A program made the translations under genes and the position numbers. From Candidatus Peribacter sp. (GTDB taxonomy: Bacteria; Patescibacteriota; Gracilibacteria; Peribacterales; Peribacteraceae): 64,000 nucleotides of DNA. Numbering within the stretch: position 1 is the stretch's first letter; the number at the start of each line of letters is the position of its first letter. This document shows, in pieces, positions 57,267 through 64,000 of the stretch. The stretch is taken from assembly GCA_018652955.1 (NCBI GenBank), contig JABIBA010000011.1, forward strand, positions 1-64,000. The letters are read 5' to 3'. Below the pieces are notes generated by a model. It had not been told where the DNA came from, did no database searches, and worked only from the letters and a program-made list of their open reading frames with translations.

Positions 57267-58070
57267 ATGAGCGAAAACCAGACAATTTCGGGTGAAAACG
57301 TCTTCAAAGAGCGATCAATACGAAGCATCCTTGAGCGTCTAGGATTAGACGACAGAGAGGTAGAGGTCTATCTCGCTCTCCTTCATATGAAGATTGGTCG
57401 TGTTAGCACTATTGCGAAAGCTGCAAAGCAGCCACGAACCCTGACATACGTTCTTCTAGAGAAGCTACAGAAGCGTGGAATCGTCTCGGAGATAGAGAAA
57501 GGAAAGATGCAGAACTTCGTAGCAGAATCTCCGCAGAGGCTTCTCTCGTATGCACGAGATCAAATGAACGAACTCGAAGAGGTAGAAGAGATGCTAGAAG
57601 GCGCTATCCCCTATCTTGAATCACTCACAAGTCCGCTTGCAGGAAAGCCACGTGTCACCATGCTGCATGGGATAGAAGGAATGAAGCAAGTGTACAGAGA
57701 TGTGTTACAACAAGAATTTGTAGGTGTGTTTAATACAGAAGCGATGTACAAAGCATTTGGAGAAAACATTGTAACCAAGCTCTACGGAAAAAACGTGAAG
57801 TTAAAAGGAAGAGATCTTCTTGTAGACAATGCTGGAGGACGATCATTTATGAAAGAAGTGCAACAACACCCAGGGTACGAGATACGACTACTCCCGCAAT
57901 CTACGATTCTAGAAACCGATACAATGGTATTCGGAGATACTATCGCCTTGTTTTCGTACGACGACGAACAATCTATTGTACGAATAGAAAATAGAAACCT
58001 AGCCAACACCTTTCGTAGTTGGTTTGAGATGATGTGGAACTTGAGTGAAAAAACATCTGGCTCGAAGTAG
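57267..58070 (+). CDS. TrmB-family transcriptional regulator
   Basis: 267 residues. The N-terminal winged helix (about 15-85) has the TrmB pattern: ILERLGLDDREVEVYLALL, then KIGRVSTIAKAAKQPRTLTYVLLEKLQKRGIV. A linking helix follows at 95-120. The C-terminal domain (130-260) resembles the sensor part that in TrmB binds sugars. The family is best known from archaea but is common in CPR. Overlaps the metallophosphoesterase by 1 bp if that starts at its GTG, so the two are one transcript. Confidence 0.85.
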   Translation: MSENQTISGENVFKERSIRSILERLGLDDREVEVYLALLHMKIGRVSTIAKAAKQPRTLTYVLLEKLQKRGIVSEIEKGKMQNFVAESPQRLLSYARDQMNELEEVEEMLEGAIPYLESLTSPLAGKPRVTMLHGIEGMKQVYRDVLQQEFVGVFNTEAMYKAFGENIVTKLYGKNVKLKGRDLLVDNAGGRSFMKEVQQHPGYEIRLLPQSTILETDTMVFGDTIALFSYDDEQSIVRIENRNLANTFRSWFEMMWNLSEKTSGSK

Positions 58071-59056
58071 TGCTGGACTCTACAATCGGTGGGATGTTCC
58101 TCCTCAACACTGACATCTTCTTCTGGGATCTAGCGATATTGCTGATCATGACTATTACCCTATCCATAGGGATAGGAAGCTTGGTTGTTGCGCGCAGGAA
58201 ACAAAAAAAGTTCTTCGGGTTCCTTAGTCTGCTCGGGTTTCTAGGATTTATGATTATTACGTACGCGTCGTTTATAGAACCACAGATCATTGTGGTTACA
58301 AAAGTATCTGTCACACATCCGAATGCGCAGAAGTTAAAGATTGCTATTGTGTCCGACCCGCACGTTGGGCCTTATAAAGATGATGCATTTTTAGAACGCG
58401 TTGTATTAAAACTCAATGGACTCCTTCCAGATATAGTCTTAATGCCGGGTGACTTTGTATTCACAAGATCTGCAGACCCCATTCATCTCGCACCATTTGC
58501 AAAGATCAATGCTCCACTTGGTGTGTTTGCAGTCCTTGGTAACCATGATGTTGGGCAGTACCTTTCTCCAACAGGAGAACGCTATTCTGGAAAAGACCGT
58601 GGAGAAAACATCGCTCAAAAACTTGAGCAGTTTTCTGTAAAAGTCCTACGTAACGAACACAAACTCTTGCCACTGACCCATGCGAACATTGCCGTCGCTG
58701 GTATTGATGACTTGTGGACAGGGCACCACAATCTTCCTGCAAGCCTGCAAGATATTCCACCTGATACCTACACGATACTTCTCTCTCATAATCCCAGCGT
58801 AATCGATGAACTAGAGAGTGCTGCTGCTGACTTGATTGTGAGTGGCCACACGCATGGTGGGCAACTGCGCATCCCTAGCTATGGGCCGCTTACAGAGCTG
58901 CCTACAAGCCTTGGTCGAAGTTTTGATCAAGGTCTTTTCCCACTTGAAGATGGCCGTACCCTCGCAATTACCCGAGGAATTGGCGAAAGCGGTGCACGAA
59001 GCAGGCTTCTTGCTTGGCCTGAGATTTTAGTTGTTGAGCTATCTCCTACAAGGTAA
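58070..59056 (+). CDS. Membrane-anchored metallophosphoesterase (YkuE-like)
   Basis: 328 residues from a GTG overlapping the upstream stop; an ATG at 58094 is an alternative. Two N-terminal TM helices, then a calcineurin-type domain: VSDPHVGPYKDDAF, LMPGDFVF, VLGNHDVGQY, LLSHNP and SGHTHGGQLRIP, which supply the two-metal site. The order TM-TM-phosphoesterase matches YkuE-type lipid or sugar-phosphate hydrolases of the cell surface. Substrate unknown. Confidence 0.9.
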   Translation: MLDSTIGGMFLLNTDIFFWDLAILLIMTITLSIGIGSLVVARRKQKKFFGFLSLLGFLGFMIITYASFIEPQIIVVTKVSVTHPNAQKLKIAIVSDPHVGPYKDDAFLERVVLKLNGLLPDIVLMPGDFVFTRSADPIHLAPFAKINAPLGVFAVLGNHDVGQYLSPTGERYSGKDRGENIAQKLEQFSVKVLRNEHKLLPLTHANIAVAGIDDLWTGHHNLPASLQDIPPDTYTILLSHNPSVIDELESAAADLIVSGHTHGGQLRIPSYGPLTELPTSLGRSFDQGLFPLEDGRTLAITRGIGESGARSRLLAWPEILVVELSPTR

Positions 59057-60293: not shown

Positions 60294-60341
60294 GATATAA
60301 AGTGGAAAGTGCAAATTGGAATGGAAGTATATCACAGATTT

Positions 60342-60821
60342 ATGAAAAGACATTTCACAGCAACGGCCTTTATCGTCGATTCGAGCAATCGCACTCTTCT
60401 TCTTTGGCATAAGAGACTCCAAAGATGGATGCCACCAGGTGGTCATACCGACCCAGATGAATTACCCGAAGAAACTGCCAAGCGTGAATGCAAAGAGGAA
60501 ACGGGCTTAGATGTAGAGATCGTTGGAGGAGCATCTGAAGATCTTTTTGCAAGCTGCCCACGGGAAGGCCAAATGCTTAAAATTCCAATAGCCATGCTGC
60601 TCGAAAATATCCCCGATTGCCCAGAAAGAGACGAGCCTGCCCACCAGCATATGGACTTTCTCTTTCTTGCACGTCCAATAGATGAAGCTCAAGACCTCGT
60701 TTTAGCTGAAGAAGAGGGTGAGGACATAAAATGGTTTACCAAAGCCGATATCGAGGCTTTGGACCAAGAATCAGAGATTTTTGGAAATGTGAAGGCGTAT
60801 ATTCTTCAAATCCTCGAATAG
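60342..60821 (+). CDS. NUDIX hydrolase
   Basis: 159 residues from ATG 60342 (60321 is an alternative). Perfect NUDIX box: GHTDPDELPEETAKRECKEE followed by TGL, that is G-x5-E-x7-REUxEExGU. PPGGH immediately before and a C-terminal EDIKWFTKADIEAL are common in nucleoside-diphosphate-linked pyrophosphatases. Substrate cannot be set. Sixty-five bases upstream of the RelA/SpoT homologue. Confidence 0.9.
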   Translation: MKRHFTATAFIVDSSNRTLLLWHKRLQRWMPPGGHTDPDELPEETAKRECKEETGLDVEIVGGASEDLFASCPREGQMLKIPIAMLLENIPDCPERDEPAHQHMDFLFLARPIDEAQDLVLAEEEGEDIKWFTKADIEALDQESEIFGNVKAYILQILE

Positions 60822-60886: not shown

Positions 60887-63664
60887 ATGCAGTGGAATGA
60901 GCTCAAAAGCCACCTTCGGCACCTTAGCAGTGCGGACCACAAGCGAATCCAGCATGCCTTTGAACTTGGAAAAGAATCACACGGAGAACAGAAGCGTAAA
61001 TCTGGAGAGCCTTATTTTATGCACCCTATTGCTGTCGCTCATATTCTTGCCGATATGGGAGCAGATTCAGATACGCTGATTGCTGCTCTTCTGCATGACA
61101 CAGTAGAAGATACGAATCTCACACTTAAAGAGATTAACAAAGAATTTGATGGAGATGTATCAGCTCTTATCGATGGCGTAACAAAGCTCGAACCAGAAGA
61201 TGTAGCTGCGCATCCCACCATGGATGAGCAGATTGAAACATTGCGAAAAATGTTCGATCTTATCGAAAATGATGTTCGTGTTATTACCATTAAACTCGCA
61301 GACAGGTTGCATAACATGCAAACCATTGAACATCTCACTCCAGAGAAGCAGCGAATTATGGCGCAAGAGACGATGGATATTTATGTAAAAATTGCAGACC
61401 GTCTAAGTATGCAAGACATGCGTGACGAACTGGAAGCGCTGTGCATTTCTATTCTAGAAAAAGATCGATTTTCAAAACTGAGTGCCCAGCAAGAACGCAA
61501 CGAGCAAAGGTCTATTCGTGCCGTTAAAGTCCTTGGCGACAAGCTCGACGCACATAATCCAAAACTCATGGATAAGACAGAGATGCTCTACGAAGCTCAG
61601 TCTTGGGGAAAGATCTCTACTCAGGTAAATGTTGGACAGAAAAAAGTAACAGGTATCCCAGACATGGTCATCGTGTTTCTTTGTAAGGAAGTGTCACAGT
61701 GTTACCAAATTCTTGGAGCTCTACACCAAACTCATCCACGAGAGACCACATCATTCCAAGATTTTATTAATGCGCCGATGATCAATGGATACCGCGGCTT
61801 GCACACAACAATAATTTTGGAGAAAGGTACGCGTGTACGCTGTAAAATTCGTACAGAAGAAATGGATGAATACGCGCACTTCGGTATTGCTACCCATTGT
61901 TTCGACAACTTGGCTGGAGGAATTATGGATTACCTTCTTCCGTGGACAGGGCAAATTTCCTCACTCTCCAAAGACACAAAAATGCAAAGTGAAGCGTATT
62001 GGGAAAGCCTGCAAAACGATATATTAGGAGAATCCATTGTGATTCACGGTACAGATGACCGTCACGTACTACTTCCAAAAGGTTCCTCAGCTCTTGATGG
62101 AGCTTTTTACTGTTACGGAAATAAGGCGCTGTTTATTCAGTCTATTCAGATCGATGGTATAGAGGTTCCATTTCATACCCCTCTGCATAATGCGGTATCG
62201 CTTAGTGTGACTACTGGTAAGCAGAAAACGGTATCACTAGAATGGCTGCATTGGATTAGCTCGGGGCTAGCAACAGCAATGATTCGCAGCTCTCTCGCAC
62301 AACTCTCTGGGACAAAAAGACGAGTAATTGGAAAAGAGCTTCTACAAAACTTCCTCACCGCCCACAAAAAAGGATACATCGAAGAATTTAACAAGCAGTC
62401 ACTGCTCGATGCCCTACAAAAAGTTGGATATACTTCTTTGAACCAAGCTTATGAAGGAATAGCCGATGGGCACTTACAACCATCTGATGTATACGAATCG
62501 CTCTTTGCTATTTCTAAGAAAGGATCAAAAGATATTGTAACGCGCATCAAAACCAAAATATGCTTTACGATGAATTTTGATGACTACGACTCTGTAACAA
62601 AGACGCTAGACGTATATAAATGTTACGGAATTTCTCTACGCAGTGTGCGGTTCCGTCCATTTGCTATGAGCCGCGGAAACATCTGCGTTGTGCATCCATT
62701 TACACCAAAAGAGCAGCAATCTATCTCAAGAGACTTGGAAGCTGCTGGAGTAGAAAATGTGCACGTCGTCGCTGCGAACTCTCGAATGAAATTCTTATTT
62801 GGTGCTGGGTTCCTTCTACTAGTATGGGGATTTGACCCCGCTATCGCTTATCATATTATTCATGAGTTCGATGTATCGCCTGTTGACCTTACTCTGCTGC
62901 GCTGTTGGGCTCTCACTGTGCTCTCTGGACTGACACTCCTATGGCAGAGAATGACAAAAAAAGACCAGTACATTTCTATCCCTATTCGCAATCTATCGCT
63001 GTGGATATCTGTACTACTCATGATTTGTATCTCCCTTACGTCCTACATTGCCCTACAAGGAACCCAACCTGCACACTATTCTATTCCAATGACTGCTGCA
63101 GGTATTTTGCTAACGACTATTGTAAATAGAAAGCACTGGATAGTACTGATTTTCACATGGTTACTCCTGTTTATTGGTGTAGCTCTTGTTGCTCTATTCA
63201 CTCCGGTTTGGGATCTAAGTAGTATGATATTTATGCTTCTTGCAGTAATAGCCTTCTCTCTATTCTCCGTCGTTTCTGAAGCGTACAAAAAAGAGGTTAA
63301 CATTGGCGCTCGCGCTATTCAGTACTTCTTTGCACTCAGTCTACTGTGTACCATTCTTACAGCGCCTCTTTTGCTTATTTCAACAATTGACTCATTGCCA
63401 AGAGAGGCAATAGTAGAAATAGTTCTCTTTAGCGTCTTCATCGCAGGACTTCCTTACTACATGTACTACTCTCTGCTCTCGTATAAGCAAATCGACTTTG
63501 TACTGCGGTATTCATTCCTCATTATCTTTACGACAATATTAGGGCAGATGCTCTTTGCACCAAGTGCCCCACAGGTAAGTGGTCTCACACTCGTAAGCGG
63601 GCTTATCGTAACGGTCGGAGCTTTGCTTCCGATTGTCTTTAAAAAACGTACAGTAGAAGCTTAA
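60887..63664 (+). CDS. RelA/SpoT homologue fused to a 10-TM EamA-like membrane domain
   Basis: 925 residues. The HD hydrolase (about 15-175) keeps the metal and catalytic set: His46 (FMHPIAVA), His70-Asp71 and Glu74-Asp75 (LLHDTVEDT), Asp139 (LADRLHNM). The synthetase region (about 215-335) keeps Asp259 and NGYRGLHTT (300-308), but the usual EVQIRT reads RCKIRT, replacing the catalytic Glu with Arg318, and the RxKxxxS ATP-binding stretch is not recognisable. A weak TGS-like part (380-445) and an ACT-like part (545-632) follow. From Met634 there are about ten TM helices with the EamA/DMT look. This predicts a membrane-bound (p)ppGpp hydrolase linked to a transporter-like domain. The fusion is one uninterrupted frame. 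Confidence 0.85.
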   Translation: MQWNELKSHLRHLSSADHKRIQHAFELGKESHGEQKRKSGEPYFMHPIAVAHILADMGADSDTLIAALLHDTVEDTNLTLKEINKEFDGDVSALIDGVTKLEPEDVAAHPTMDEQIETLRKMFDLIENDVRVITIKLADRLHNMQTIEHLTPEKQRIMAQETMDIYVKIADRLSMQDMRDELEALCISILEKDRFSKLSAQQERNEQRSIRAVKVLGDKLDAHNPKLMDKTEMLYEAQSWGKISTQVNVGQKKVTGIPDMVIVFLCKEVSQCYQILGALHQTHPRETTSFQDFINAPMINGYRGLHTTIILEKGTRVRCKIRTEEMDEYAHFGIATHCFDNLAGGIMDYLLPWTGQISSLSKDTKMQSEAYWESLQNDILGESIVIHGTDDRHVLLPKGSSALDGAFYCYGNKALFIQSIQIDGIEVPFHTPLHNAVSLSVTTGKQKTVSLEWLHWISSGLATAMIRSSLAQLSGTKRRVIGKELLQNFLTAHKKGYIEEFNKQSLLDALQKVGYTSLNQAYEGIADGHLQPSDVYESLFAISKKGSKDIVTRIKTKICFTMNFDDYDSVTKTLDVYKCYGISLRSVRFRPFAMSRGNICVVHPFTPKEQQSISRDLEAAGVENVHVVAANSRMKFLFGAGFLLLVWGFDPAIAYHIIHEFDVSPVDLTLLRCWALTVLSGLTLLWQRMTKKDQYISIPIRNLSLWISVLLMICISLTSYIALQGTQPAHYSIPMTAAGILLTTIVNRKHWIVLIFTWLLLFIGVALVALFTPVWDLSSMIFMLLAVIAFSLFSVVSEAYKKEVNIGARAIQYFFALSLLCTILTAPLLLISTIDSLPREAIVEIVLFSVFIAGLPYYMYYSLLSYKQIDFVLRYSFLIIFTTILGQMLFAPSAPQVSGLTLVSGLIVTVGALLPIVFKKRTVEA

Positions 63665-64000
63665 GACACACTGCCATCGATTGTAGTACCACGGATTCTT
63701 TCAGCTTCAATTGCCTTTTCGTCTAAATCTTCCATAAGCTCAATTGCTGCTTCCTTATTTTCTTGAGCATCTGCATGGGCAACACTCCAAATAACGTTGA
63801 GAGCAACCACCCTTGAACCTTGAGTTTCTCGTGCAGCTAAATTATTCGGGTTCGTAGATTGTCCAACGCGACTGTATCCCAGTTTCTTAAAGAATGCTCT
63901 ACTAGCTTCGTTTTCATCTTCTCGTGATACGCGCTTGTCCTCTCTATCTGTTGGCCATACCTGAATAAATCCCCCGAAGCGGCTTAAATGCCAGTCTGTA
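63661..64000 (-). CDS. Possible GNAT-family acetyltransferase (partial, C-terminal part)
   Basis: 113 residues are visible, running off the right edge. The segment SRAFFKKLGYSRVGQSTNPN has the RxFYxKxGF pattern that closes the acetyl-CoA-binding fold of GNAT enzymes. Before it is WHLSRFGGFIQVWPTD, and after it a helical tail (AIELMEDLDEKAIEAERIRG). Shares its stop with the RelA/SpoT gene through TTAA. The family call rests on one motif. Confidence 0.45.
   Translation of the reverse strand, partial: TDWHLSRFGGFIQVWPTDREDKRVSREDENEASRAFFKKLGYSRVGQSTNPNNLAARETQGSRVVALNVIWSVAHADAQENKEAAIELMEDLDEKAIEAERIRGTTIDGSVS

Follow-up and report, generated by a model that had tools for sequence, protein, structure and literature searches.

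Long RelA/SpoT homologs (RSHs) are known as soluble proteins that sense starvation through ribosomes or soluble partners. The locus described here raises the question of why one of them should continue, within a single reading frame, into a polytopic membrane module related to transporters, and what a protein built in this way might do. It lies near the end of the window, by which we mean the whole 64,000-nucleotide stretch of Candidatus Peribacter DNA that was analyzed. A preliminary description of this DNA had reported one frame joining an HD hydrolase, a synthetase and a membrane part, and both the coordinates and the length were exact: on the forward strand, 60887-63664 is open from ATG to stop without interruption and encodes 925 aa (Table 1). 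The HD, synthetase and transmembrane (TM) parts had been named correctly, but the TGS, helical and ACT-like regions had been overlooked. By its domain order (HD, synthetase, TGS, helical), the window protein is a long RSH; the TIGR00691 model is collinear with aa 24-550 at 369 bits, with its whole-protein cut-off of 499 not reached, and long RSHs from the PDB align to aa 13-541. Two other identities were ruled out, namely a small alarmone hydrolase (HD only, ~200 aa), given the 925 aa and the further RSH domains, and a bifunctional Rel, given a synthetase site that is not intact. One explanation for such a join is an assembly or frameshift artefact that fused two separate genes, one for an RSH and one for an EamA protein. 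The same join is found, however, in 57 independent homologs from other assemblies, including single-contig and few-contig genomes, and it is open in the 41 and 16 members of the two forms described below (a few are cut by contig ends), which leaves a vanishingly small chance that a sequencing error joined two genes.

Table 1. Positions of the RSH-EamA gene, its parts and its upstream neighbor (numbering of the window; aa, residues of the encoded protein).
Feature	Position	Strand	Remarks
RSH-EamA fusion gene, 925 aa	60887..63664	+	hydrolase-only long RSH with C-terminal 10-TM module (predicted)
HD_4 (p)ppGpp-hydrolase domain, aa 24-174	60956..61408	+	Pfam 143 bits
Pseudo-synthetase domain, aa 236-340	61592..61906	+	Pfam RelA_SpoT 54.8 bits (match aa 252-337)
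RCKIRT, aa 318-323, at EVQIRT site	61838..61855	+	conservation of at least 90% in family at all six positions
Inter-domain segment, aa 341-385	61907..62041	+	position corresponds to Core of hydrolase-only SpoT (compared with PMC9974481)
TGS-like region, aa 386-445, and helical AH region, aa 446-550	62042..62536	+	TIGR00691 collinear
ACT-like region, aa 554-629	62546..62773	+	aligns with Pfam ACT_4 in related RSHs
10-TM EamA/DMT-related membrane module, aa 634-915	62786..63631	+	group A of four; hydropathy, hhalign
NUDIX hydrolase, directly upstream of RSH-EamA gene	60309..60821	+	Pfam NUDIX 59.7 bits

Profile searches recovered both catalytic domains in the N-terminal part, and their residues indicate which activity has been kept. 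The metal and catalytic residues of the HD domain that had been listed earlier (His46, His70-Asp71, Glu74-Asp75, Asp139) are all intact, together with R37 and N143, and these eight residues are invariant in 57 of 57 membrane-fused homologs. In the synthetase domain, motif tables bore out the replacement of the catalytic Glu of EVQIRT by Arg (RCKIRT) and the loss of the ATP-binding stretch: R241/K243/K251 and D264 (RelSeq numbering), residues of the ATP and metal sites, are gone, and ten reference positions read EQKQ-YHRKR as compared with RKSKDYHEQR in an intact synthetase. The catalytic Glu and the full ATP-binding Arg/Lys set are absent from all 41 proteins of the 10-TM form, none of whose alignments has a Glu at that position, and by the same residue comparisons the synthetase is dead in 57 of 57 membrane-fused proteins. 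It could be argued that the synthetase nevertheless works weakly despite these substitutions, which would make the protein bifunctional in the manner of E. coli SpoT, since the nucleotide pocket retains N300, Y302 and H306 and the domain is highly conserved; set against the residues missing throughout the 10-TM form and a complete synthetase encoded elsewhere in the genome, we regard this as very improbable.

The degraded domain nevertheless persists. Mean identity is 56% for the pseudo-synthetase versus 62% for HD, and dN/dS is 0.06-0.12 for the former and at or below about 0.12 for the latter, values that indicate that the dead synthetase is under purifying selection and is not decaying. The segment that follows it (aa 341-385) is also conserved across the family (LPW, DT, W..L..DIL). 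In the SpoT of A. baumannii, a retained pseudo-synthetase, the Core and TGS scaffold the hydrolase (PMC9974481), and by analogy we infer that the pseudo-synthetase, the Core-like segment and TGS scaffold HD here.

Loss of synthesis in the fusion, as the residues support, is explained by a second RSH with the opposite loss in the same genome. The window genome, 99% complete and in 17 contigs, encodes two RSHs in all, and the other, on contig C9 (L002), is a 649-aa soluble Rel in which the synthetase residues RKSKDYHEQR are intact and HD is broken (HH for HD, EQ for ED). The same HD break was present in 30 of 30 family orthologs of this Rel that were examined, whereas the membrane-fused proteins have the opposite pattern (41 of 41 and 16 of 16). 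By its motifs, the membrane protein appears to be the sole predicted (p)ppGpp hydrolase of the window genome. In seven of 25 genomes checked (G000, G069, G137, G176, G196, G208, G254), HD_4 matched just the fusion and the synthetase-only Rel, so that the fusion is the only intact hydrolase found there, and two family members without the fusion (G062 and G243) encode in its place a small HD protein in which the hydrolase motif is present. In G243, which belongs to the genus of the window genome and is 92% complete, no long hydrolase RSH was found besides the synthetase-only Rel and the small HD protein, here of 167 aa; the lack may reflect a real loss or a gap. A third RSH of about 475-530 aa, forming its own clade, with an intact synthetase and a partly lost HD (RHHDVHHD type), occurs within the same family (L092-L101, L104, L108, L110-L113, L117, L119, L123, L124) and is absent from the window genome.

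The regions behind the catalytic domains fit this division. The TGS His reads the tRNA end in Rel and RelA and has been lost from hydrolase-only SpoT (PMC9974481). Of the synthetase-only proteins, 30 of 32 have this His, versus one of 41 10-TM proteins; in the window protein it is Tyr. Such a distribution is consistent with a synthetase linked to ribosomes and a hydrolase that works independently of them. Pfam RelA_AH_RIS scored above its cut-off in relatives of the window protein. Pfam ACT gave no match in the window protein itself; aa 554-629 align, with great divergence, to relatives that bear ACT_4. This region would be expected to serve as the relay; it is less conserved than any other part of the fusion (19% identity) and has a weak strand/helix pattern in a low-confidence AlphaFold2 model. 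It had been proposed that regulation by TGS and ACT, normal elsewhere, gives way here to a tie to the membrane. The membrane part of that proposal is supported and the replacement is not: as judged from the alignments, the membrane module is added behind the TGS/ACT architecture, not in place of it.

What, then, is the membrane module? TM helices were counted by hydropathy scan, which revealed ten hydrophobic peaks behind the ACT-like region. Positive charges lie almost only in the even loops (sums of 1.6-3.8 inside and 0.1-0.8 outside), and this positive-inside alternation predicts an N-in/C-in topology that keeps the enzyme half in the cytoplasm. The earlier assignment of about ten helices from residue 634 to the EamA type is right, although a direct profile search with the window protein did not establish it, because the window copy scored 10.6 bits against a Pfam EamA cut-off of 28.2. 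Relatives did exceed the cut-off (L033, L036, L037, L041, L049, L050; up to 58 bits). In addition, an hhalign profile of 41 TM parts matched the three stand-alone EamA proteins of the genome (96.3%, E 1.5e-9, 276 columns), to which shuffled and reversed control profiles gave no match, and the 10-TM profile matched the EamA part of the longer, 13-14-TM form (98.3%). We conclude from the relatives above cut-off and the profile-profile comparison that the membrane part is EamA-related. A PDB profile search of the TM part returned a weak match to 5i20 (E 0.34), and a potassium-channel match of the 13-14-TM set was dismissed as chance-like. AlphaFold2 models of the full-length protein and of the TM part, made with only the window protein and L003 as input, had pLDDT values of 37-40.

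To place the fusion among its relatives, we used 288 genomes of the same class, with one genome per species. Full-length matches (residues 1-900 or more) came from about 30 of the family's 57 genomes, at 38-48% identity, a named relative being a Candidatus Peribacteria MAG (L003), and from five other families of the class, at 27-32% identity; among the matches listed for 380 genomes of the phylum, full-length ones came only from the window's class. The suggested search of CPR genomes for the same fusion yielded 57 membrane-fused proteins, 41 of the 10-TM form and 16 of a 13-14-TM form (1083-1269 aa) with four more TM helices ahead of the EamA part. These homologs and the anatomy of the protein support the earlier view of a breakdown of alarmone that would be coupled to the membrane. 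In a tree of the enzyme half, the 57 proteins form one group (SH-aLRT 97) that adjoins soluble hydrolase-only relatives. Bifunctional Rel proteins with ACT and a 4-TM tail were also found (13 proteins, in several other families of the class), and this ACT and 4-TM tail matched the longer fused form (98.5%, E 3.8e-15). By this similarity, a bifunctional Rel with a 4-TM tail is a likely precursor, and the history may have run from a membrane Rel, through loss of synthesis and gain of EamA, to loss of the four TM helices in the 10-TM form. One of these loci, L045:7305-10616 (+), encodes a 1103-aa Rel with 4 TM and an extra C-terminal domain of ~300 aa (residues about 800-1103) that has no Pfam match and contains a glycine-rich ALIGCGPEPG, by eye reminiscent of a methyltransferase.

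Comparison of the two halves of the fusion suggests that the EamA part is a swapped input module, exchanged repeatedly between relatives. The enzyme halves of L018, L021 and L023 are 74-77% identical (76% for L018 versus L023), yet the TM half of L018 shares only 20-21% identity with those of L021 and L023, the fall occurring at about residue 600-650. TM parts formed four groups (A-D; support 98-100), and mapping these groups, taken from the TM tree, onto the enzyme tree required at least 15 changes as compared with a minimum of 3. When each group was held together as a clade on the enzyme tree, an AU test rejected it, with p values of 0.038 (A), 2e-7 (B), 6e-6 (C) and 0.001 (D). Because both are quick trees with many weak branches, the figure of 15 changes is rough; the rejection of groups B and C is firm. 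L033 joins an enzyme half of the 10-TM type to a 13-TM membrane part, and several swapped genes retain the same NUDIX neighbor, which indicates that the module was changed in place. Each TM group has its own conserved membrane residues, some of them polar. Recurrent substitution of distant modules that share one fold, each having its own conserved residues, resembles the swapping of input domains in signaling proteins.

Another possibility is that the EamA part is a mere anchor or scaffold, with regulation left to the TGS/ACT regions that remain or to gene expression. Conservation of 90% or more is confined to about 3% of TM columns, identity between TM groups is low, and some genomes have a soluble HD-only RSH near the same neighboring genes, so that membrane attachment is dispensable for the lineage. 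(Gene fission to an adjacent EamA gene was rejected at these soluble loci, where no multi-TM neighbor of such size was found.) Anchoring, however, does not need a ten-helix transporter fold and would require neither group-specific conserved polar residues nor the repeated exchange of one module for others with that fold. Nor would it require a dN/dS near 0.1, and the TM part, at about 0.09-0.12 where dS is not saturated, is by this measure under purifying selection. Swapping and purifying selection together make a plain anchor less likely, and we consider it an unlikely account; it is mainly the swapping that would favor sensing over anchoring. Alternatively, the module could be a working EamA transporter whose uptake or export is controlled by (p)ppGpp level or hydrolysis. 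EamA/DMT proteins are transporters, the fold and the 10-TM topology are kept, and the module groups could differ in the substrate carried, but this arrangement leaves unexplained why the hydrolase half is strongly conserved and the dead synthetase retained while the TM half is replaced, and we think it quite unlikely.

The neighboring genes offer a further point of contact with nucleotide metabolism. The nearby NUDIX gene had been mentioned earlier as no proof of a link; the association is stronger than was claimed, as NUDIX is the adjacent upstream, co-directional gene at 23 of 41 10-TM genes, with gaps of 1-195 bp. NUDIX and RSH-EamA are candidate partners in one transcription unit, and the NUDIX protein is a possible second step in alarmone breakdown. 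Family-wide, the NUDIX gene shows 55-75% identity; it is convergent to several soluble or 13-TM hydrolase genes. Between uvrA and the RSH gene, many relatives retain the gene for a membrane-linked calcineurin-like phosphoesterase (58070-59056 in the window). Downstream, a convergent gene (63661-63999 in the window; L001:4275-5624 (-)) encodes a protein of about 449 aa with no Pfam match, a relative of which is found at the same place in L006/L137.

Taken together, we consider it probable that the window protein is an integral-membrane, hydrolase-only long RSH with a SpoT-like role, serving as the sole off-switch, with the EamA module most likely its input domain. Building on the architecture, motifs, split of activities, topology signal, module exchange and selection read from the sequences, we infer catalysis, direction of control and ligand as follows. 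The cytoplasmic N-terminal HD domain would remove the 3'-pyrophosphate of (p)ppGpp, and the disabled synthetase, the Core-like segment and TGS would hold HD in its active form, as in the hydrolase-only SpoT of A. baumannii. Alarmone would be made by the soluble, hydrolase-dead Rel encoded on the other contig, probably on starved ribosomes; a bifunctional Rel would thus have been split into two one-way enzymes, of which the membrane enzyme alone is predicted to switch the alarm off. A small molecule that binds to or passes through the EamA module, or the state of the membrane, would change the rate of hydrolysis through the ACT-like and TGS regions. More tentatively, at slightly under an even chance, the modules may be membrane receptors or transceptors, that is, exchangeable sensors of the EamA fold on a hydrolase-only RSH that set (p)ppGpp turnover directly, with the soluble Rel as an on-switch only. 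If so, these host-dependent bacteria would adjust their stringent response to various metabolites outside the cell or in the membrane.

The repeated exchange of the module suggests an uncharacterized membrane sensor that sets the alarm level, and a polytopic RSH whose transporter-like domain can be swapped would link the membrane directly to the stringent response. It would also mean that a RelA/SpoT division of labor evolved independently in a lineage with very small genomes. The natural chimeras, with nearly the same enzyme half, make module-specific sensing or transport directly testable. No membrane RSH is described in a survey of RSHs (PMC3153485), and we found nothing direct in the open-licence literature on a bacterial RSH with an EamA or TM module or on ppGpp in Peribacteria.

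Among known systems, the hydrolase-only SpoT of Moraxellaceae (A. baumannii, PDB 7qpr; PMC9974481) is alike in its active HD, its disabled synthetase that serves as a scaffold, the presence of Core and TGS, the loss of the TGS His and the pairing with a RelA-like synthetase. It differs in being soluble, with a C-terminal ZFD and RRM where the window protein has an ACT-like region and then the 10-TM EamA module, and the tree points to a separate origin of the latter within the window's class, with its own synthetase-only paralog. The RelA/SpoT pair of beta- and gammaproteobacteria (PMC3153485) likewise represents a duplicated Rel resolved into a dead-HD synthetase and a hydrolase, but in another lineage, whereas here the hydrolase is predicted to lie in the membrane and to be fully synthetase-dead. 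For Arabidopsis RSH1, putative C-terminal TM stretches were once proposed (PMC5633626); these are two in number, GFP fusions were found in chloroplasts, and there is no transporter-like module. EamA/DMT transporters (PF00892; YddG, PDB 5i20) share ten TM helices, the N-in/C-in topology, profile similarity, and a conserved W-G-D-P in TM1 and Arg in TM2, but the window module is fused to an enzyme and is very divergent, and any transport by it is putative. Also related are the bifunctional-looking Rel proteins of other families (L156-L166, also L170 and L045:7305-10616), which have a membrane tail behind ACT; the four TM helices of this tail in L156-L166 are homologous to the extra four of the 13-14-TM form, but both catalytic sites look intact and the EamA module is absent.
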